Assembly: GCA_944324225.1 (NCBI GenBank)
Contig: CALUVL010000002.1
Location: forward strand, 124,001 to 188,000
Direction: 5' to 3'
DNA length: 64,000 nucleotides
Source: Candidatus Gastranaerophilales bacterium
Lineage (GTDB): Bacteria; Cyanobacteriota; Vampirovibrionia; Gastranaerophilales; Gastranaerophilaceae
Under the pieces are notes generated by a model. That model was not told the origin of the DNA. It searched no databases and saw only the letters and a program-made list of their open reading frames with translations. The translations under genes were made by a program, and so were the position numbers. Position 1 is the first letter of the stretch; each line of letters begins with the position of its first letter. Below, in pieces: positions 4,000-48,426 of the stretch.

Positions 4000-4830
4000 T
4001 TATGCACAACGAGATTTGTTGAGGGCATATACACCGGCAATAACACCGCTTATGCCGGCTATAATTCCGCCCATTAAGGATGAATATGTTCTGGATTTGG
4101 GAATGTATTTTTTTACTATAGAATAATCATTTTTAAGACCTTCATTGCTGGTCAATGTCGCAAGTTTTTTGTACATAAGATTTGCTCTATCAGAGATAGC
4201 ACGTGTAACTTTTTCCCACTGTTCACTTATTGCACGTCCTTTGTCAGGAAGATTTAATATAGCGTTCTCTCTTGCCGAGCGAAATGCAGTTCTGGCCTTT
4301 TTGTATTGATTAAGTGGTTCTTTTACAGCAAGCTCTGCTTCTGCAAATTCTCGTGCAGCAGATTTCATTTCAAGATAAGCATTTGTGTCTTTTGGGTTTT
4401 CCACTACCTTTTTATGAGCACGTTCAAGGGTGTCTTTCAGTTCTTTATAATGAGCATCTTTAAGAGCTTGCAGATATATGGTTTTCTTAGCGTTAACCTC
4501 TGACACAAAACTGTCATCAACATTGACTTGATTTACTAAATCATGCCAGGTTTTTGCCTCAGGAGCTATTTTATTTTTGGTAATTATTTTTCCGGAGCTT
4601 CGATATGTCTTTGAAGCCTGCTTTAAATTTTCAACAGATTTTTTTTCTTCAGGCGTTGCATTTTTCATTGCAGCCTGTGAAAAAATACGATCATATGTTT
4701 GGTCATTTTGCATCAAAAGTCTTTCAAGCGAAAATTTTCTTGGAGCCAAAATATAACCCGCCCCAAGTCCCAAACCTGAAGAAATTGCTCCAACTCCACA
4801 CGGAGATACAGAAACCGTATTTGTACTCAT
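4000..4830 (-). CDS. Hypothetical protein, coiled-coil core with hydrophobic ends
   Basis: Function not recognised. The 276-residue protein has a glycine-rich hydrophobic N-terminal segment (about residues 12-28), a long Lys/Glu/Ala-rich central part that should form helical coiled coils (about 40-240), and a C-terminal hydrophobic stretch rich in Gly and Ile (about 250-270). It lacks a classical signal peptide. The hydrophobic hairpins at both ends suggest membrane association or interaction with a membrane. It is transcribed divergently from the GT2 gene, and a near-palindrome related to a repeated operator-like motif lies in the shared upstream region. Confidence 0.75.
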   Translation of the reverse strand: MSTNTVSVSPCGVGAISSGLGLGAGYILAPRKFSLERLLMQNDQTYDRIFSQAAMKNATPEEKKSVENLKQASKTYRSSGKIITKNKIAPEAKTWHDLVNQVNVDDSFVSEVNAKKTIYLQALKDAHYKELKDTLERAHKKVVENPKDTNAYLEMKSAAREFAEAELAVKEPLNQYKKARTAFRSARENAILNLPDKGRAISEQWEKVTRAISDRANLMYKKLATLTSNEGLKNDYSIVKKYIPKSRTYSSLMGGIIAGISGVIAGVYALNKSRCA

Positions 4831-4933
4831 ACCGACACTCCTATATTCCTCAAATGTAAATCACACTAAACTACCAGTCACATTATTACTCTAAAATTAA
4901 ATTTTTGTGGTTTTTTACAACAAAAATTTACAT

Positions 4934-4973
4934 CTTGTAACAATTGTGACAAGCTAAAATTCTATGCTATATT
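4934..4973 (+). promoter_or_regulatory. Palindrome overlapping the -35 of a GT2 promoter
   Basis: A 20-bp near-perfect palindrome (CTTGTAACAA followed by TTGTGACAAG, one mismatch) is followed by an extended -10 element TGCTATATT ending at 4973. The best -35 (TTGTGA at 4944-4949, spacer 18) is inside the palindrome, as expected for a repressor site. It also lies upstream of the divergent minus-strand gene. It resembles the TTGTTAC-N6-GTAACAA motif seen elsewhere in the window but has a shorter spacer. Confidence 0.45.
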
Positions 4974-4991
4974 TGAATTGGAGATTTCACA

Positions 4992-5840
4992 ATGGAACCT
5001 TTAATAAGTATAATAACACCAACACTTAATATAGTTGAAAAAGAGCAGGCTGATGAGTTTAATTTGCTTGTAACTCTGCTTGAGCTTCAGACATACCCCA
5101 GAATAGAACATATTGTTATTGATGGTTCGTCTACGGATGAAACAATTGATCTCCTTAAAGATTATAAAAATAAAGGCTATATTAATTTTTATACAGAAAG
5201 AGACACAGGCAAATTTCACGCTCTTAACAAAGGTATTATGCGTGCAAAAGGAAAGTACATAGCATTTATAAGTTGTGATGACTTTTACCATGATATTACG
5301 GCAATCAGCGCTGCTGTATCTGCAATGGAAGCTGATAACGCTGATTTTTTGTTTTCTCCGGCTTATTGTAGACACCCTGAAGGTTATACATTTCTTTTCA
5401 TGCCTGCAATGTATAATGCATTTCAAGTTTTGCCGTGTGCAAGACAGGGAATGATATTTAGGCGTTCAATACTAGAAGAAGAAAAATATTTTGATGAAAA
5501 ATTCAAAATTATGTCAGATATGGATTTAATTATTAGACTTCTGCTAAAACGCAGAAAAGCCTTATTTTTTGAAACCAATTTTACCACATATAAATTCAGT
5601 GAAAAGAGTTACGGAAACGAGGAACAATGCATTAATGAAACCAAATTAATCTATCATAAAAATTTCAGAAATCTTTGTGCTCTCAATGACGAAACTCTTG
5701 AAGCGATGGCATTATATTCAGAATTTCCACCGGCGCTTCTTGAGAAACTTGCAGTATGTTTTTCGCCTGATGACAGAGATTTATTTATGGAACGCTGCGA
5801 ACAAATGCACCAATTGCGTCTACAGCAGTATAGAGGTTAA
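4992..5840 (+). CDS. Glycosyltransferase family 2
   Basis: Cytoplasmic GT-A fold sugar transferase, probably for surface polysaccharide or lipid-linked glycan assembly. The N-terminal PLISIITPTLN strand, the nucleotide-binding EHIVIDGSSTDET block, the GKFHALNKGI segment and the DDFYHD acidic motif (DxD-equivalent, near residue 96) are all family hallmarks. Length of 282 residues fits a single-domain GT2 without membrane segments. The start is supported by GGAG upstream. It is a single gene, followed by a weak hairpin terminator. Donor and acceptor cannot be told from sequence. Confidence 0.9.
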   Translation: MEPLISIITPTLNIVEKEQADEFNLLVTLLELQTYPRIEHIVIDGSSTDETIDLLKDYKNKGYINFYTERDTGKFHALNKGIMRAKGKYIAFISCDDFYHDITAISAAVSAMEADNADFLFSPAYCRHPEGYTFLFMPAMYNAFQVLPCARQGMIFRRSILEEEKYFDEKFKIMSDMDLIIRLLLKRRKALFFETNFTTYKFSEKSYGNEEQCINETKLIYHKNFRNLCALNDETLEAMALYSEFPPALLEKLAVCFSPDDRDLFMERCEQMHQLRLQQYRG

Positions 5841-5883
5841 AAATTAAACTTGTATTGCGGTTGTATTTTGTTTGTAAAATTAA

Positions 5884-5908
5884 CCGTTAAAAAAACGGCA
5901 TATTTTTT
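5884..5908 (+). terminator. Weak rho-independent terminator after the GT2 gene
   Basis: CCGTT and AACGG form a five-base stem with a short A-rich loop, followed by CATATTTTTT. The stem is short, so this is tentative. Confidence 0.35.
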
Positions 5909-5920
5909 GTAGTCTGCTGG

Positions 5921-7375
5921 TTAACCAAATGTTTTGAAGGAGCCTTCAACGTTCTTTTCAATGACTTTTTCAACTGAATCCATTTCGGTTTGAATTGCGT
6001 TTTGTTCAGTATCAAGCTGCTGAAGCCGAAGTTCCAAGTTCTTATCTTGAGCTTGTATAATTTCTATTTTGGCATTTATTTGATCTATAGACTGATCATA
6101 GAGATATTTTTCGTGTTCATACTCATTCATAGCATCATTATAGGCATCTTGATCAGTAACTGTTGTTGTCGTTAGAGCAAATGTTGAGAAAGTACCGGAG
6201 CCATCATCATTAGGAATTGATATTGAAATGAATCGCCCTGAAGAATCTCTTTCAACAAGACAACCGTCAACAGCTTTAATTTCTTTTACTTTAGTATCAC
6301 TTCCGATTGTATAGCAGTTGATATTGGTTAAAATATTGCCATTTCCATCAGTGTTGCCCGAATTATTTTCTAAATCTGCTTTTTTATAGAAATATGGTAC
6401 AGCTTCGCCTGTAGTAGTATTTTCAACATATCTTACATACCATTCATCAGTGCCATATTTTTGTTCTAATTGCTCTATCCAGGCTTGTTCTTCTGTTAAT
6501 GCCGCACTAATTTCTTCGTTTGTAAGACCTCCGAAATACGGGTCATTTTCTAATCCAGGGTATTCTGTTATACTTGCAATCTGATCTTCAGTCAGGTGTT
6601 CTTTTGAAAGTTGATCACTCCAGGCTTCTTTGCTGTATGTTCCGTCGCCGTTGCTTTGAACAAGAGTTACAGCATATTCCGGATCTGTTTGTGTGTCATC
6701 ATACAAACAGATAATCAAATCATCTTCCGTTACGCCAGTCAGGTCAGTTCTTGTCCCCTCTTCATCAAGAGTATAATATCCACCTGTAGTATCATCTTTG
6801 AAAACCTGCTCTGCTGCTGTAAAATCATCATTAAACTTGTAATATTCAAAATTTTCTATATCCTCTGGTGTGCATTGTTCAATACCTTTAACTTTTGTTG
6901 TTTTTTCAACAAAATATCCGCCAGCATCTTCCTGAACGGGATATTCAACACCGTCAATAGTGATAGCATTTCCTACATAAGCTGTAGTATCTGCTTTTCC
7001 AAGCTCACGTAACTGTGTGCTTCCCACAAAATAAGCCCCATTCTGAACGTTAACAATACTTGATGAAGCAGCAACAGGAACATAATCATCCTGCCATTTT
7101 GAAAGATAACTTAATGTATAAGTTCCGTCAGTTTGTGCAATCATTGCGGTAATTTCATTAGTCAAAGCACCATCGTCAAATGTGTAAACTGTTTTGGTGT
7201 AACTGTCAACAGAAGGAGGCACCGGTACAGACATACCGAGCAGATCATTATAATAGTTTGCAGACTGGTTAGACAATGAAGTTCGCTGCTGGTTAATTTG
7301 CTGGCCTTCAAACTCCAGATTAGTCTTACGGGCAGTCAAACCTAAAAATCTAGCTTGTGACGCTGCCATTCCCAT
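5921..7375 (-). CDS. Large hypothetical, hook/filament-associated-like ends
   Basis: Function not proven. The 484-residue protein begins MGMAASQARFLGLTARKTNLE, an amphipathic helix, and ends in a long heptad-like helix (about residues 400-484) closing with FKTFG. Helical N- and C-termini that can pair around a beta-rich, acidic middle are the architecture of flagellar axial and hook-associated proteins, and there is no signal peptide. I infer a protein exported by the flagellar type III apparatus. The middle is rich in Thr, Asp and Tyr with short strand-like repeats. It follows the metallopeptidase gene on the same strand after 123 bp that contain a perfect palindrome. Confidence 0.7.
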   Translation of the reverse strand: MGMAASQARFLGLTARKTNLEFEGQQINQQRTSLSNQSANYYNDLLGMSVPVPPSVDSYTKTVYTFDDGALTNEITAMIAQTDGTYTLSYLSKWQDDYVPVAASSSIVNVQNGAYFVGSTQLRELGKADTTAYVGNAITIDGVEYPVQEDAGGYFVEKTTKVKGIEQCTPEDIENFEYYKFNDDFTAAEQVFKDDTTGGYYTLDEEGTRTDLTGVTEDDLIICLYDDTQTDPEYAVTLVQSNGDGTYSKEAWSDQLSKEHLTEDQIASITEYPGLENDPYFGGLTNEEISAALTEEQAWIEQLEQKYGTDEWYVRYVENTTTGEAVPYFYKKADLENNSGNTDGNGNILTNINCYTIGSDTKVKEIKAVDGCLVERDSSGRFISISIPNDDGSGTFSTFALTTTTVTDQDAYNDAMNEYEHEKYLYDQSIDQINAKIEIIQAQDKNLELRLQQLDTEQNAIQTEMDSVEKVIEKNVEGSFKTFG

Positions 7376-7456
7376 AGCCGTCCAGTTCCTTTCCGTTTAG
7401 TTCCATTATTCTGTTATACGGAAAGACTCCCTTGTAACTTTAATAATCAAGACCTT

Positions 7457-7476
7457 TTGTTACAAAATTGTAACAA
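7457..7476. promoter_or_regulatory. Operator-like palindrome TTGTTAC-N6-GTAACAA
   Basis: A nine-base arm TTGTTACAA is matched by TTGTAACAA after two bases. It lies 82 bases upstream of the hook-like minus-strand gene, between it and the metallopeptidase gene. The same arrangement occurs upstream of pilT and, less perfectly, of anmK, which argues for a protein-binding site rather than chance. The regulator is unknown. Confidence 0.5.
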
Positions 7477-7498
7477 TTAAAGCCTGCATACGATTTTG

Positions 7499-9226
7499 TT
7501 ATGCATAGGTCCACCATTGCCAGTCCGGCTCAGATTCAACATACCCGTCCTGATTATAAGCTGTTTCAATATGACTTTCGATTGTGCCTTTTTCATTCGG
7601 ACCGTCGACGGCTGTTGTAATGCCTCCGCCCGCATCAAATTCATCACCGGCAATACTGTCAACGTAATCAGCGTCAGCCTGATACGCACTGTATTCACCC
7701 CACATTGTATACATCAGATAAAAGAATCTGTTTAATTTTTCATCTGTAAATGTATAATGTCCGTCAGTGCTGCTAAACTCTCCTCTATTCGCTGCATCAA
7801 TAATTAATTGTGTAATATTATCTGAATAATAAGAGTATTCATCTGCGGTAAGTGCACCTGCTTCATACATAGAATCAATTGTATCTTGAGTAACTGCATA
7901 TGGATCAAAGAACCCGTTTGAATCCACAACCGTATAATTATATGCAGTAGCATGCGTAAGTTCATGAACCAAAGTATCTACAAGTTCATACCACTGTGCA
8001 GTTTCAAAATACTCCTGATTCAATGTTAATCCCAAATCATTTTTGCTGGTGTCGCTATCAGATGCATATATTGTATAATTCATTCCGTTGTAAGTTGCCT
8101 GCAGACCGTTTGATGTGTAAGACCCCATAGTAATATATCCGTCCGGAGCTGAATCGCTAAGGTCTGCAAATGCAATTTGGCCTACATGTATAGAGTTATA
8201 TGTGTCTGTACCTGCAAGCAGTCTGTTCAGAGCTTCCAACTGGGCAGTTAATCCTGCAGCCTCAAGGTATTCTCTTGTTTTTTCAATACCAAATTCAAGT
8301 TTTCCCTGAAGACTCAATGATTCGTATTCTTCTTGAATTTCTGCAGCATAAGTTTCAACATTTGACTGCAATGCAGAAGCGGAAGTTCCGATTTCTTCGC
8401 CGATTAACTCTTTTATTTCTTCGACAGTTAGAATATCATTGCCGTTTTTGTCAAGAATATCAAAAATTCTGTTTATAGATCCGAAAAAGTCATAGTTTGA
8501 ATCTTCCCAGCTGTCATTTTGAGTGAGCGCAATCAACTGTGCTCTTGTAATCCCTGTTTCTTTCGAAATTGAAGGATCCTGTTCGTTGAGCCAGTCAAAC
8601 ATGCTTTCTACATCATCAAATTCTTCAATAAAGGAAGCTTTCGGCTCATCAGGCTCTTCCGTATCGTCGTCGTCACCAGTAACAGGCGTGTCGTCGTCAT
8701 CATCCCCGACGGTTACATCATCATCGTCGTCGCCTTCCTCTGTTTTAGGGTGGTGAAGATCATAAATTACCTGTTTAATATCTTCAATTTGAGAACCTGA
8801 TAACCCAGTAAACTGCACAGATAAATTACTTTTTATTTTAAGATCTAAGTCTATATCCTTTACGATTTCATCAGCATCTTTAACTGTGCTGGCAGTATCA
8901 GGTGTCGGAATTACATCAATAAAAGTCTTTTGAGAGACAGTGCAGGCTGCCGAGCCATTACCAATTGAGCCAACCGATGAAACAGGTGTATAACTGATAA
9001 AAGACTTCGTTTTTAAAGCACCTATCGCAACATCATTCGCAATTGAATAAATGGTTGCATCTTTATTTGCAGCAAGCATTTCATCTACAATAGACGCTGT
9101 ATCGATATCACTGGATGATATTCCGGTCTCAGAAGCGGCTTTTTTAACTTCTTCTGTCACCTGCTTTTGAACCTCTGCAGTCTGTGCTTTTGCAACAATC
9201 GTCAGTAGTTTTGAATTTATCTGCAT
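7499..9226 (-). CDS. EF-hand, Asp-rich HExxH metallopeptidase-like protein
   Basis: Putative zinc-dependent peptidase, about 576 residues from the ATG at 9226, which has AAAGGA about 10 bases upstream (an in-frame upstream TTG at 9277 has no such support). The catalytic motif HELTH is at about 421-425, with a possible third zinc ligand Glu in WGEYSAYQAD near 511. A canonical EF-hand loop DKNGNDILTVEE is at about 259-270. Residues 165-190 are a linker of three runs of four or five Asp separated by VTVG and TPVTG, suggesting calcium or strong acidic binding. There is no signal peptide, so export would need another route, possibly the flagellar apparatus. Substrate unknown. Confidence 0.72.
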   Translation of the reverse strand: MQINSKLLTIVAKAQTAEVQKQVTEEVKKAASETGISSSDIDTASIVDEMLAANKDATIYSIANDVAIGALKTKSFISYTPVSSVGSIGNGSAACTVSQKTFIDVIPTPDTASTVKDADEIVKDIDLDLKIKSNLSVQFTGLSGSQIEDIKQVIYDLHHPKTEEGDDDDDVTVGDDDDDTPVTGDDDDTEEPDEPKASFIEEFDDVESMFDWLNEQDPSISKETGITRAQLIALTQNDSWEDSNYDFFGSINRIFDILDKNGNDILTVEEIKELIGEEIGTSASALQSNVETYAAEIQEEYESLSLQGKLEFGIEKTREYLEAAGLTAQLEALNRLLAGTDTYNSIHVGQIAFADLSDSAPDGYITMGSYTSNGLQATYNGMNYTIYASDSDTSKNDLGLTLNQEYFETAQWYELVDTLVHELTHATAYNYTVVDSNGFFDPYAVTQDTIDSMYEAGALTADEYSYYSDNITQLIIDAANRGEFSSTDGHYTFTDEKLNRFFYLMYTMWGEYSAYQADADYVDSIAGDEFDAGGGITTAVDGPNEKGTIESHIETAYNQDGYVESEPDWQWWTYA

Positions 9227-9329
9227 ATTCCTGAATCCTTTAATCTGGTATTCGGATGTTTTGCAGATAATCTTCACTCGTTTTTACAAAAAATTTACAA
9301 AAATTTACCAGACGTTTTCTGTTAAATAT

Positions 9330-9359
9330 TTGCAAAATAAAATATGCCTGTAATATAAT
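9330..9359 (+). promoter_or_regulatory. Putative sigma70 promoter of the oxidoreductase operon
   Basis: TTGCAA and a perfect TATAAT are separated by 18 bases, about 38 bases before the start codon of the first gene. Confidence 0.55.
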
Positions 9360-9396
9360 AAAATTAAAGATAAATACATTTAGTAAAGGATTGGAA

Positions 9397-10398
9397 ATGG
9401 TACAACAAAGAATAGCTGTCATAGGCTGTGGTATGTGGGGCAGAAATATTGTAAGAAATTTTTACAGCCTTAATGTTTTAGATACAGTCTGCGATATTGA
9501 TGACGAAAATCTGAAAAAAGTAAGAGAACAATATCTCGGAGTTAAAACGACAAAAGATTTTAATGAGGTTATAAACAACAAGGAAATTACTGCTGTTGCT
9601 GTCGTAACCCCAAGCCACACACACTTCAAACTTGTTAAAGCTATGCTTGAAGCCGGTAAAAATGTATATGTTGAAAAACCGATTTCAACCGTAGCGCAGG
9701 AAGCAAGAGATTTGTCGGAACTTGCTCATCAAAAGGGGCTTGTCCTTATGGTCGGGCACCTGTTGCTTTATCATCCTGCCGTAAACAGGCTCAAAATGCT
9801 TATAGAAGACGGTGTTCTCGGTGAAATAGTTTACGCGCAGAGCGACAGGCTGAATGTAAACTTCCACAAAAATGACCGAAGCGTTATGTGGGATCTGGCG
9901 CCTCATGATGTTTCGATGATAAGTTACGTTACTGGCAAAACACCTTTAAGAGTGATTTCTGCAATTGGTTGCTCTTCTGATAGAACTGATATCATGGATA
10001 TTACGCATATCGGAATTCAGTTTGAAGACGGTGTCATAGGACATATATCCGACAGCTGGATTACTCCCAAAAAACACGTTACTCTTCTTGTAAGAGGCAC
10101 AAAAGCAACAGCAATTCTTGATGATACAGTTCCTGAAAACAAACTTGTTGTATATGATAATTTTGAACAAAATACTACACAACATATTACAACACCGGAT
10201 GTGCTTGAAATTGAACCGCTAAAACTTGAGTGTCAGCATTTTATAAGCTGCTGTGAAACAGGTAAAAAAGCACGCTCTGATGGAGATAACGGTTTTATGG
10301 TTACGCAGATTCTTGAAGAAGCTGAAAAAATTATGCTCGGAGAAAGAGTTAAAAACCTTGATTCTGTCAATTTCGCACTGTCAAGAATGAAAAAGTAG
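9397..10398 (+). CDS. Gfo/Idh/MocA family oxidoreductase
   Basis: NAD(P)-dependent sugar dehydrogenase-type enzyme, probably acting on a nucleotide sugar or sugar acid. The Rossmann motif GCGMWG is near the N-terminus, followed by the VVTPSHTH block and the VEKPIS motif (EKP near residue 96) that marks the family. The conserved SDSWITPKKH region belongs to the C-terminal substrate domain. I chose the ATG at 9397 because AAAGGA sits 6 bases before it; a TTG six bases earlier is too close. It is first in an operon with a CDP-alcohol phosphotransferase, TrmL and NnrD. Homologues often serve surface polysaccharide synthesis, but the substrate here is open. Confidence 0.88.
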   Translation: MVQQRIAVIGCGMWGRNIVRNFYSLNVLDTVCDIDDENLKKVREQYLGVKTTKDFNEVINNKEITAVAVVTPSHTHFKLVKAMLEAGKNVYVEKPISTVAQEARDLSELAHQKGLVLMVGHLLLYHPAVNRLKMLIEDGVLGEIVYAQSDRLNVNFHKNDRSVMWDLAPHDVSMISYVTGKTPLRVISAIGCSSDRTDIMDITHIGIQFEDGVIGHISDSWITPKKHVTLLVRGTKATAILDDTVPENKLVVYDNFEQNTTQHITTPDVLEIEPLKLECQHFISCCETGKKARSDGDNGFMVTQILEEAEKIMLGERVKNLDSVNFALSRMKK

Positions 10399-10422
10399 TA
10401 TAGGTAAAAAGGGATATTTAAA

Positions 10423-11043
10423 ATGGATATTAAAAACAATACGGCAAACATCGTGTCAATAAGCAGAGTTTTTGTTGCTTTTATTGCTATAGGATTGTTG
10501 TTTCTTGATTCCAGAACAGCGTATCTTATATCACTTCTGCTTACGGTTATAGCATTTAGTATGGACGGTGTGGACGGATATATTGCAAGAAAATACAATC
10601 AGTCATCCGAACTCGGTTCTGTTTTGGATATTATGGGGGACAGAATTGTCGAAGCTTCTTACTGGATAGCATTTACAGCTTTAGGCTGGCTTCCTGTTTT
10701 ATTCCCTATTGTTTGTGTTACAAGAGCTTTCACAACTGACAGCATCAGAAGTGTTGCTCTTTCAAAGGGGATGACGGCCTTCGGTGACAAATCAATGCAG
10801 TCTACAGCATGGGGTAAGTTTATTTGTTCATCAAAATTTATGAGAATAAGTTATGCTGTTGCTAAAGTTGCTGCCTTTGTTTTGATAATTGCGGCTTACA
10901 CACCTGATATAAACTTCAATCTTGCAGACGGCATTAGAGTTGTGGCAGAAATACTTGCTTGGATTGCGATAATTTTCTGTGTGGTAAGAGCAATACCTGT
11001 TGTTGCTGAAAGTGGAAAGCTGTTTGAAAATGGCAAAAATTAA
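10423..11043 (+). CDS. CDP-alcohol phosphatidyltransferase (PgsA-like)
   Basis: Integral membrane enzyme that transfers a phosphatidyl group from CDP-diacylglycerol to an alcohol, most likely glycerol-3-phosphate in phosphatidylglycerol synthesis. The signature D-x2-D-G-x2-A-R-x8-G-x3-D-x3-D is complete, starting at DGVDGYIARKYN near residue 47. Several hydrophobic helices surround it, and 206 residues fits the family. An MDIKNNTANIVSISRV start is typical of PgsA. The 3' end overlaps the trmL start by 14 bases. Whether it is the housekeeping PgsA or a paralogue with a different alcohol cannot be settled. Confidence 0.87.
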   Translation: MDIKNNTANIVSISRVFVAFIAIGLLFLDSRTAYLISLLLTVIAFSMDGVDGYIARKYNQSSELGSVLDIMGDRIVEASYWIAFTALGWLPVLFPIVCVTRAFTTDSIRSVALSKGMTAFGDKSMQSTAWGKFICSSKFMRISYAVAKVAAFVLIIAAYTPDINFNLADGIRVVAEILAWIAIIFCVVRAIPVVAESGKLFENGKN

Positions 11044-11479
11044 CATTGTGCTTTATGAACCTGAAATTCCGCAAAATACTGGAAATATTGCAAGACTTTG
11101 TGCGTGTACTGGTGCATCTTTGTATTTGGTTGGAAAACTCGGATTTTCATTGTCAAGCAAATATACAAAGCGCGCAGGACTAGATTATTGGGACAGTGTT
11201 GATTTACACAAAATTGAGTCTATGGATGAATTGCTTTTGTCCAACAAAGATGCTAATTTTTACTATCTGACAACTAAAACAAAACGCAAATATACGGATA
11301 TACAATTTAAAGACGGTGACTTTATTGTGTTCGGACCGGAAACACGTGGGCTTCCGGAAATCTATGTAAAAGATAAAAACGCTTTGACTATCCCAATGAA
11401 AGAAGGCCAAAGAAGCTTAAATCTATCAAATTCCGTTGCAATTGTCGCCTATGAGGTTATAAGACAAAATGGACTTTGA
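11030..11479 (+). CDS. trmL: tRNA (cytidine/uridine-2'-O-)-methyltransferase TrmL
   Basis: SPOUT-class methyltransferase that 2'-O-methylates the wobble base of tRNA-Leu with S-adenosylmethionine. The N-terminus MAKINIVLYEPEIPQNTGNI carries the conserved EPEIPxNTGNxxR motif; IVFGPETRGLPEI and LNLSNSVAIVAYE form the knotted cofactor site. I start at the ATG at 11030 because homologues begin there; an upstream start would add ten unrelated residues. It overlaps the previous gene by 14 bases and the next by 11, so translation is probably coupled. Family assignment is secure; the target tRNA is inferred from the family. Confidence 0.93.
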   Translation: MAKINIVLYEPEIPQNTGNIARLCACTGASLYLVGKLGFSLSSKYTKRAGLDYWDSVDLHKIESMDELLLSNKDANFYYLTTKTKRKYTDIQFKDGDFIVFGPETRGLPEIYVKDKNALTIPMKEGQRSLNLSNSVAIVAYEVIRQNGL

Positions 11480-12275
11480 ACTTCCTTTACGCAGTGAAAA
11501 TTCAAACAAGGGTACTTTTGGCAGAGTTTTAAATATTGCCGGTTCTGATTATATGCCAGGGGCAGCTTATTTATCAAGCGTTTCTGCTTTGAAAGCTGGC
11601 TGTGGATATGTATTTCTGGCAAGTGAAGAAAGAGTTATTGATGCAGTTTCAGCGCAGACTCAGAATGTTGTCTTTGCGCCACTCAGAGATATTTATAATC
11701 TTTTAAAAACTGCGGATGTCCTTTTAATTGGATGCGGACTTTCAACCAGCAAAAAGGCAGAAAAAATATTTACGGAAGCTATGGAATCAGTACCTGATAT
11801 TCCGGTTGTAATAGATGCTGATGGGATTAACATTCTTGCTGGGCTAGATACTCCCAAACTGCCTGAAAAATTAATTTTGACACCTCACATAAAAGAGGCT
11901 TCAAGGCTGTTAAAAATAGAAACAGAAAAAATATCTGCTGACATGGAGTTTTATGCAAAAGAGATATCAGAAAAATACAACTGTACAACTGTTTTAAAAT
12001 CCAGTGAAACCGTTGTCTGTGGAAAAGATTTAAACATATACCGCAACAATAAACAAAACAGCGCACTTGCAAAAGCTGGAAGCGGAGATGTTCTGGCGGG
12101 AATTATTTCCGGACTTCTAGCTCAAGGCATGGATGAATTTAATGCAGCTAAAACCGGTGTTTATATACACAGCCTTGCAGGTGAATACGCAAAAAATGAC
12201 CTGACTGAATTTGCGGTTATGGCAAATGATCAAATCAGGTACATTTCTTGTGCATTTAAAAAATTATTAAATTAA
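11469..12275 (+). CDS. nnrD: ADP-dependent NAD(P)H-hydrate dehydratase, kinase-like domain only
   Basis: Metabolite repair enzyme that dehydrates S-NAD(P)HX using ADP. It has a ribokinase-like fold with NKGTFGRVLNIAGS near the start, VIDADGINIL, LTPHIKEASRLL, and the nucleotide-binding AKAGSGDVLAG near residue 200. Only the dehydratase domain is present (268 residues); the NnrE epimerase half, fused in many bacteria, is absent here and must be elsewhere or missing. It is the last gene of the four-gene operon. Its stop overlaps the stop of the convergent small gene by 4 bases. Confidence 0.9.
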   Translation: MDFELPLRSENSNKGTFGRVLNIAGSDYMPGAAYLSSVSALKAGCGYVFLASEERVIDAVSAQTQNVVFAPLRDIYNLLKTADVLLIGCGLSTSKKAEKIFTEAMESVPDIPVVIDADGINILAGLDTPKLPEKLILTPHIKEASRLLKIETEKISADMEFYAKEISEKYNCTTVLKSSETVVCGKDLNIYRNNKQNSALAKAGSGDVLAGIISGLLAQGMDEFNAAKTGVYIHSLAGEYAKNDLTEFAVMANDQIRYISCAFKKLLN

Positions 12276-12613
12276 CCGAAAAAGTCAAAAGCTCCGCGGC
12301 CATCATTATCCGTGATTCCTTGCATGTTAGCAATTTCAGCAGGTGTCGGCATCGGTGCTTCTTTTATACTTCTAATTTCAGAAGAAGGAATATTTTTCTT
12401 AGAAACTGTCAAAGAAGCAATATTTTTGATAAGAGTATTTTTATCATTAAAAAATTCTGCATCTCTTAATTGTCTTACCGCTTTTTTTTCATTAACAGTA
12501 CCTGCCAAGTTTGAAGAGGCTGAAACATAAGCTTCTTCAAGTTTTCTTGCAGCCTTGTTAGCTACTTTTGATTGCATACCTGTAAAAGATACGCCTTGGA
12601 TTCTTTGAATCAT
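12272..12613 (-). CDS. Small hypothetical with N-terminal VSFTG motif
   Basis: A 113-residue protein of unknown function. It begins MIQRIQGVSFTGMQSKVANK, a short N-terminal tag of the form M-x-I-x-x-(V/I)-(S/T)-F-x-G that I associate with many lineage-specific proteins; a second example lies after dnaE. The middle is helical and Lys-rich, and the C-terminus ends in an acidic, Gly-containing tail closing with FDFFG. There is no signal peptide or membrane segment. AAAGGAG upstream supports the start. A degenerate copy of the TTGTTAC-N6-GTAACAA palindrome lies just upstream. Confidence 0.75.
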   Translation of the reverse strand: MIQRIQGVSFTGMQSKVANKAARKLEEAYVSASSNLAGTVNEKKAVRQLRDAEFFNDKNTLIKNIASLTVSKKNIPSSEIRSIKEAPMPTPAEIANMQGITDNDGRGAFDFFG

Positions 12614-47301: not shown

Positions 47302-47356
47302 TGAAAAGCATAAAAAATCATGCTAAAATAAAAGAGTAACGAACGTGAAAAAGAAA

Positions 47357-47420
47357 AGGAGATAAGAGTATGAAAAGCCGTACTATGATTGAATTTACGG
47401 GGGGGGGGGGCAACCTATAA
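47357..47420 (+). promoter_or_regulatory. Poly-G switch: RBS, ATG and 12-G tract ahead of the pilin frame
   Basis: AAGGAG is followed after 7 bases by an ATG at 47370, then a short frame running into twelve G (47399-47410) and a stop at 47418 after 16 codons. The pilin frame is offset by one base. Removing one G or adding two would join this ATG to the pilin. This is the layout of slipped-strand phase variation, though a homopolymer error in the assembly must be excluded. Confidence 0.6.
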
Positions 47421-48426
47421 TCAGGCTCCTTCAAGCGTTTTAGCCGAAAGTAATGGAATTACGCGTCATCCTGAGCCGAAGGCGAAGGATCCTATTAAAA
47501 AGCAAGTAGATTCTTCAGTCGCTTCGCTCCTTCAGAATGACGCGCAGGGCGCGAGTGGATTCCTCGGGCTTTGCCTTCAGAATGACAAGGCAGCACAAGG
47601 AGATTATTCGGGCATTCGCCCTCAGAATGACATAAAAAAGGACGTCATCCTGAGCCAAAGGCGAAGGATCCACTTAAAACACAATTGGATTTTTCACTCA
47701 GTTCAGAATGACAGGAAAAAATCCAAACATGCCGCCTTCACAATGGCGGAAGTCCTGATTACCATCGGAATAATCGGAATTGTTGCAGCTATGACACTTC
47801 CGGGCGTAATTGAAGGGTACCAGAAAGCCGAAACCATAAACCGGTTAAAGAAAGCCTATTCCGTTATGGCGCAGGCAATAGAGCTTTCTGAAGTTCACAA
47901 TGAAAGCGTTAAATACTGGAATTTCAACCAATCCTACGCGGACTTTTTCAACCAGTACTTAAAACCTCATTTTGCAAAAATAAATGAAACAACATACGGC
48001 AAAATTTCGGATAAAGTGCAATACACACGCCCGAACGGGAGTGTTGAGAATAATTTTACTCTATTTTATTCAAATGCTTTAGTTGTAAGCACGGTCGACG
48101 GAATGACATTTTATATTACAGGTGGCAGTACAGCAATGACAGGAAAGGCTTTTGGCATTGTGCTTGATCTGAACGGCTACAAGAAGCCAAACAGGTTTGG
48201 TCGGGATGTGTTTATGTTTTCAATATCTCAGGAATACGGACTTGTGCCTTACGGATATAAAGGCACCTGCGATATGGGAAACGCTTATGACACATTTGAC
48301 CGTGAGTATCTAAAGTCAGCGTGGCGCTACGGCTGCAGCAAACAAGCAGGTGAAACCAACGGCGCATTCTGCTCTGCTCTCATAATGACCGACGGCTGGG
48401 AAATCCGCGACGACTACCCGTGGTAA
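47389..48426 (+). CDS. Type IV pilin-like protein with repeat-expanded leader
   Basis: The pilin signal HAAFTMAEVLITIGIIGIVAAM (split) has the A-F cleavage site at about 116-117 of the frame and a hydrophobic helix, followed by about 229 residues with four or more Cys, of the pseudopilin type. In the present sequence the frame opens only at a TTG without ribosome binding site. Between that and the signal lie about 100 residues made by in-frame dispersed repeats (LQND-like units recur four times). No ATG, GTG or TTG in frame lies between the G tract and the pilin signal, so expression probably depends on the poly-G switch. Function: surface pilus or secretion pseudopilin. Confidence 0.75.
   Translation: MNLRGGGATYNQAPSSVLAESNGITRHPEPKAKDPIKKQVDSSVASLLQNDAQGASGFLGLCLQNDKAAQGDYSGIRPQNDIKKDVILSQRRRIHLKHNWIFHSVQNDRKKSKHAAFTMAEVLITIGIIGIVAAMTLPGVIEGYQKAETINRLKKAYSVMAQAIELSEVHNESVKYWNFNQSYADFFNQYLKPHFAKINETTYGKISDKVQYTRPNGSVENNFTLFYSNALVVSTVDGMTFYITGGSTAMTGKAFGIVLDLNGYKKPNRFGRDVFMFSISQEYGLVPYGYKGTCDMGNAYDTFDREYLKSAWRYGCSKQAGETNGAFCSALIMTDGWEIRDDYPW
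47462..47544. repeat. Palindromic element inside the pilin leader, copy 1
   Basis: CGCGTCATCCTGA and TCAGAATGACGCG form 13-base terminal inverted repeats with one mismatch. The inner start AGCCGAAGGCGAAGGATCC matches the second copy at 47644. Two further 3' ends (TCAGAATGAC) lie at about 47578 and 47622. Confidence 0.75.
47644..47712. repeat. Palindromic element inside the pilin leader, copy 2
   Basis: GTCATCCTGA and TCAGAATGAC enclose AGCCAAAGGCGAAGGATCCA, nearly identical to copy 1. It ends 25 bases before the codon for the pilin cleavage site. Confidence 0.75.

Follow-up and report, generated by a model that had tools for sequence, protein, structure and literature searches.

SD-sequestering leader hairpins are known from translational attenuators and RNA thermometers, and in Neisseria pilC tracts are found in signal-peptide regions. 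In the window, the 64,000-nucleotide stretch of DNA analyzed here, a G tract likewise appears to lie in a part of the protein that is cleaved off, but it is placed in a pilin-like gene itself, within the prepilin leader. Hypermutability of long, pure tracts has been described in Campylobacter (PMC8355987), and the phasomes of Campylobacter and Neisseria (PMC6321876, PMC8355987, PMC5084427) provide the closest parallel, as poly-G/C homopolymers in 5' coding regions join or break the reading frame by one-base changes. The window belongs to a Candidatus Gastranaerophilales genome of 1.93 Mb (28 contigs; habitat, animal gut), and literature searches revealed no published phase variation for Gastranaerophilales or Melainabacteria. 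Comparative sequence analysis indicates that the tract is probably an SSR contingency switch located in the leader that is cleaved from a type IV pilin-like protein, with a default OFF state one G above the ON length.

All elements of the locus are located on the forward strand. An SD box (AAGGAG, 47356-47361) is followed at a spacing of 8 nt by the leader start ATG (47370-47372; MKSRTMIEFT-GGG...), a layout common to 133 pilin loci, and by twelve G residues (47399-47410). At this length (n=12) the ATG frame ends at a TAA (47418-47420) shortly 5' of the anti-SD motif CTCCTT (47426-47431), which is complementary to the SD box over 6 bp; the two would form the 3' and 5' arms of a proposed hairpin. 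The ATG is joined to the pilin frame at n=11 or n=14, hence the ON length is 11 and the sequenced tract is one G above it. The initial annotation had already described the SD box, the ATG, the G12 run, the stop at 47418 and a one-base offset that 11 or 14 G would mend, and direct reading of the sequence and its frames bore this out. The run is longer than expected by chance: five overlapping G8 matches represent this single tract, while shuffled windows gave a mean of 0.23 matches and none of 100 reached five. The initial annotation lacked a TTG (47389-47391) upstream of the tract, which at n=12 shares the frame of the pilin and opens an ORF that extends from 47389 to 48426. Between the tract and the prepilin signal, a dispersed repeat, ATCCTGAGCC(G/A)AAGGCGAAGGATC, is inserted twice in frame into the leader (47468-47491 and 47647-47670), and similar inserts (HPEPKAKD) are also present in related leaders.

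The prepilin signal lies at 47737, where the predicted mature protein (FTMAEVLITIG..., 229 aa plus stop, 47737-48426) starts. This protein matches the N_methyl family (PF07963, E 7.7e-5) and DUF6613 (PF20318, E 7.6e-8), its residues F1 and E5 are invariant in 25 homologues, and an N-terminal helix of 52 residues (3-54) is predicted with a pLDDT of 80.9. The protein has the prepilin signal, the F1 and E5 residues and the extended N-terminal helix typical of type IV pilin-like proteins; a search of PDB folds with the window pilin returned no match at E 0.001 or better. Out-of-frame pilins of the genus have a median dN/dS of 0.21. This purifying selection on the pilin frames argues that the genes are in use, and a dN/dS of about 0.2 rules out that the tract marks a pseudogene.

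The host genome contains 20 tracts with nine or more G, for which the analysis drew on the sequence flanking the tracts, and such tracts are carried by 13 of 14 genomes of the genus, with 7 to 64 per genome. Of the tracts that were read, most are preceded by an SD-ATG leader and followed by a prepilin motif such as FTMAEVL. A motif scan identified 42 pilin-like genes in the host genome versus 8 in the only genus genome devoid of tracts (G004), and the tract-free pilins read in the host genome have ordinary in-frame leaders that are open from the start codon. Across the order, a run of G8 or longer shortly before a prepilin motif was detected in 82 of 383 genomes and 16 of 52 genera. Records with the same leader are titled Candidatus Gastranaerophilales or Melainabacteria, apart from unlabelled bins and a few chance matches, and scans of viral contigs yielded one chance match, and none for the methyltransferase tract described below. 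Judged from these sequences, the window tract is one of more than 100 similar candidate switches among relatives, which form a large lineage-wide set of G tracts in pilin leaders. Three contig ends of the host genome (L010, L015 and L017; contigs C1, C8 and C14) share one 77-base tract-bearing leader, with an upstream arm in two cases and a downstream arm in one; repeats may have collapsed here, or leaders may have recombined. In genome G005, several contigs likewise end near tracts.

The reading phase was determined at 133 pilin loci whose start is supported by an SD, almost all of them in the host's genus. One G too many (+1) was found in 108 of them, while 13 were in frame and 12 were one G short; 45 of 56 leader-similarity clusters are +1. 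The tract length follows the frame, being 12 where the ON length is 11, 13 where it is 12 and 11 where it is 10, and these three classes can differ by a base substitution at the tract edge that keeps the total length (e.g. L091 and L093). A stop in the +1 frame no more than 6 codons from the tract is present in 49 of 56 clusters versus 34.4 (sd 3.0) under synonymous recoding; the -1 frame showed no such excess in the same clusters. Because ON+1 is the rule (108/133), the OFF state is best read as a conserved default of the genus and not as a random snapshot from a single draw. A freely running switch does not predict such a strong bias, and this counts against phase variation. Constant selection against ON together with slippage bias was rejected as the full cause, since a simple model of this kind yielded no long +1 tracts; it leaves the +1 bias of the genus partly unexplained.

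Three other explanations were considered. The main rival is recoding, in which the tract is read at ON+1 and a few ribosomes (by a net +1 shift) or transcripts (by RNA polymerase skipping one G) reach the pilin frame, so that pilin would be expressed at a low constant level without any change in the DNA. This is considered unlikely, even though the constant +1 offset with conserved total length in the genus, the purifying selection on out-of-frame pilins and the selection of a near-tract stop in exactly the +1 frame would all be accounted for, and herpes thymidine kinase provides a known case in which a G run causes frameshifting at a low level, an example cited in PMC5009743. A recoding site does not require a pure G run of 11-13 nt, however, slippage during transcription is better documented for runs of A/T (PMC5084427), and ON and -1 states do occur in the genus, with mixed phases in other genera. 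Constitutive translation from TTG 47389 or a similar pilin-frame start is very improbable. A TTG in the pilin frame is shared by the window and 58 of the 108 +1 loci, but that of the window has no SD and is not conserved, the conserved start being the SD-ATG; moreover, 45 of the 108 have no pilin-frame start codon upstream of the tract and 34 have none on either side of it, so that an alternative start is rejected as a general explanation. An assembly artefact, namely a one-base error that recurs systematically in long runs of G and hides genes that are truly in frame, could be suspected as all data are draft consensus sequences and many are labelled MAG. Contig names nevertheless indicate several assemblers (NODE, k127, idba), lengths corresponding to ON, -1 and +1 are all represented, and no +1 excess is seen in other genera, in methyltransferases or in the small number of other non-pilin genes whose frames could be read; we regard such an artefact as hardly credible.

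Evidence for length changes was obtained from closely related copies. Two loci from different species, L021 (ON) and L053 (+1), are 99.5% identical, and two pairs within single genomes (L354/L355 and L322/L361) are near-identical and one G apart. At the window locus, all near relatives have n=12 with the exception of L136. Phases in other genera are mixed, with 27 +1, 22 -1 and 16 ON (25, 16 and 16 without eight rows that bear assembly gaps), so that loci of different phase are intermingled there but not in the host's genus, which alone keeps the constant frame offset. In one genome, an NN gap lies inside the G run at four tracts. MutS and MutL are present, which rules out missing mismatch repair, and slippage may be slow. 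Three properties of SSR phase variation were observed in this set of loci: a homopolymer lies in the 5' coding region, a one-unit change moves an intact ORF into or out of frame, and lengths vary between near-identical copies. The differences between near-identical copies and the mixed phases elsewhere favour slipped-strand phase variation in the family, with a default-off phase specific to the genus. The pilin switch by slipped-strand mispairing that was initially put forward thus gains partial support from these differences, from the lineage-wide tracts and from the phases of other genera, but 108 of 133 loci at +1 are not expected of a freely running switch. The accompanying claim that the sequenced copy is off agrees with a tract one G above ON; it has to be qualified, as this is a conserved genus default and low-level recoding is possible. 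Two loci, L298 (G012:C2:108454) and L283 (G009:C13:27667), carry interrupted and presumably non-slipping tracts ahead of intact pilins. A CAG to CAT change creates an ATG in the pilin frame of L298, and a TTG is in frame at L283; both are possible locked-on forms.

The SD region of these leaders is complementary to a motif usually located 10-15 nt 3' of the tract. AGGAGCT:AGCTCCT is the most frequent pair and AAGGAG:CTCCTT is that of the window, while changed pairs in other genera include GGAGGTTAA:TTAACCTCC, AAGGAGATTA:TAGTCTCCTT and TTGGAGGATA:TATCCTCTAA. Own partners had a mean helix score of 15.1, swapped partners one of 14.05 (sd 0.23) and shuffled partners one of 11.0; in other genera the scores were 12.9 for own versus 12.0 for swapped partners (0/300). 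All swap tests are inflated by the kinship of the loci. With swaps confined to each genome the pooled signal persists (0/1000) and single genomes vary; the host genome alone gave no significant result (244/1000). The helix score threshold is reached by 72% of the tract loci versus 14% of tract-free pilins. A good helix is present at 96 tract loci; in 88 of these the stop of the +1 frame begins 5' of the anti-SD motif, and in 91 the stop of the -1 frame begins within the motif or 3' of it. Folded as a single sequence, the window leader did not outperform shuffles (z 0.47), and its CTCC motif paired with the G run and not with the SD. As this fold does not favour the SD/anti-SD helix, the hairpin rests on comparative complementarity and not on energy; it is well supported as a comparative pattern and is a predicted structure. 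The leader module has the appearance of a ribosome-site hairpin that encloses the tract.

Tracts are also present in other gene families. Phage methyltransferases of the host genome carry tracts of G9, G10, G10 and G12 in ON and OFF states. One prophage region (L014, G000:C8:19000-35500, 4112-12513) encodes a GpA-type terminase and tandem N6/N4 DNA methyltransferases; in three of the latter, a G9, G10 or G12 run occupies the same codons. A cytosine methyltransferase of this region has a G10 tract. These methyltransferase genes are apparently phase-variable, with ON and OFF copies adjacent to each other. Four further loci (L061, L063, L076 and L106) contain genes that look acyltransferase-like or glycosyltransferase-like by sequence, with a G tract after a short SD-ATG leader. 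As the leaders of L076 and L106 resemble pilin leaders, the tract-bearing leader may be portable between gene families.

In the favoured contingency switch, the loss of one G or the gain of two would place the SD-ATG leader in frame with the pilin and turn the gene ON, and changes by three would spare the mature pilin because the tract lies in the leader. The switch would be set inside a conserved leader module, whose SD box is able to pair with the anti-SD 3' of the tract, and the genus population would by default be OFF, poised one G above ON at nearly every tract-bearing pilin. The length changes presumably arise by replication slippage, ON cells are probably a minority, and the hairpin may help to keep the OFF state tight, with the +1 stop protecting the hairpin. 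A more tentative and rather doubtful proposal is a frame-coupled RNA switch, in which the anti-SD closes the SD unless ribosomes cross it and slippage sets both frame and initiation; similar tract-bearing leaders would also precede the acyltransferase- and glycosyltransferase-like genes. With one G too many, ribosomes would halt just 5' of the anti-SD and the hairpin would re-form to give a tight OFF state, while after loss of one G they would traverse the anti-SD and keep the SD open.

If the contingency switch is correct, repeat-driven phase variation extends to the Gastranaerophilales of the gut, which are related to cyanobacteria but non-photosynthetic, and a single genome may have up to tens of pilins that can be switched. 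The leader would also offer a testable example of a ribosome-site hairpin that incorporates a slippage tract and whose conserved phase is off by default. The system resembles the phasomes of Campylobacter and Neisseria in its many tracts per genome and in targets that include surface proteins and DNA methyltransferases. It differs from them in its Gastranaerophilales lineage, the genus-wide ON+1 default, the SD/anti-SD complementarity that encloses the tract and the tens of pilin targets, and from C. jejuni in the presence of MutS and MutL. With SD-sequestering leader hairpins it shares an SD complementary to a downstream segment, with covariation; unlike such hairpins in general, its predicted loop holds the start codon and the slippage tract, and its 3' arm lies inside the same ORF, beside the stop of one frame.
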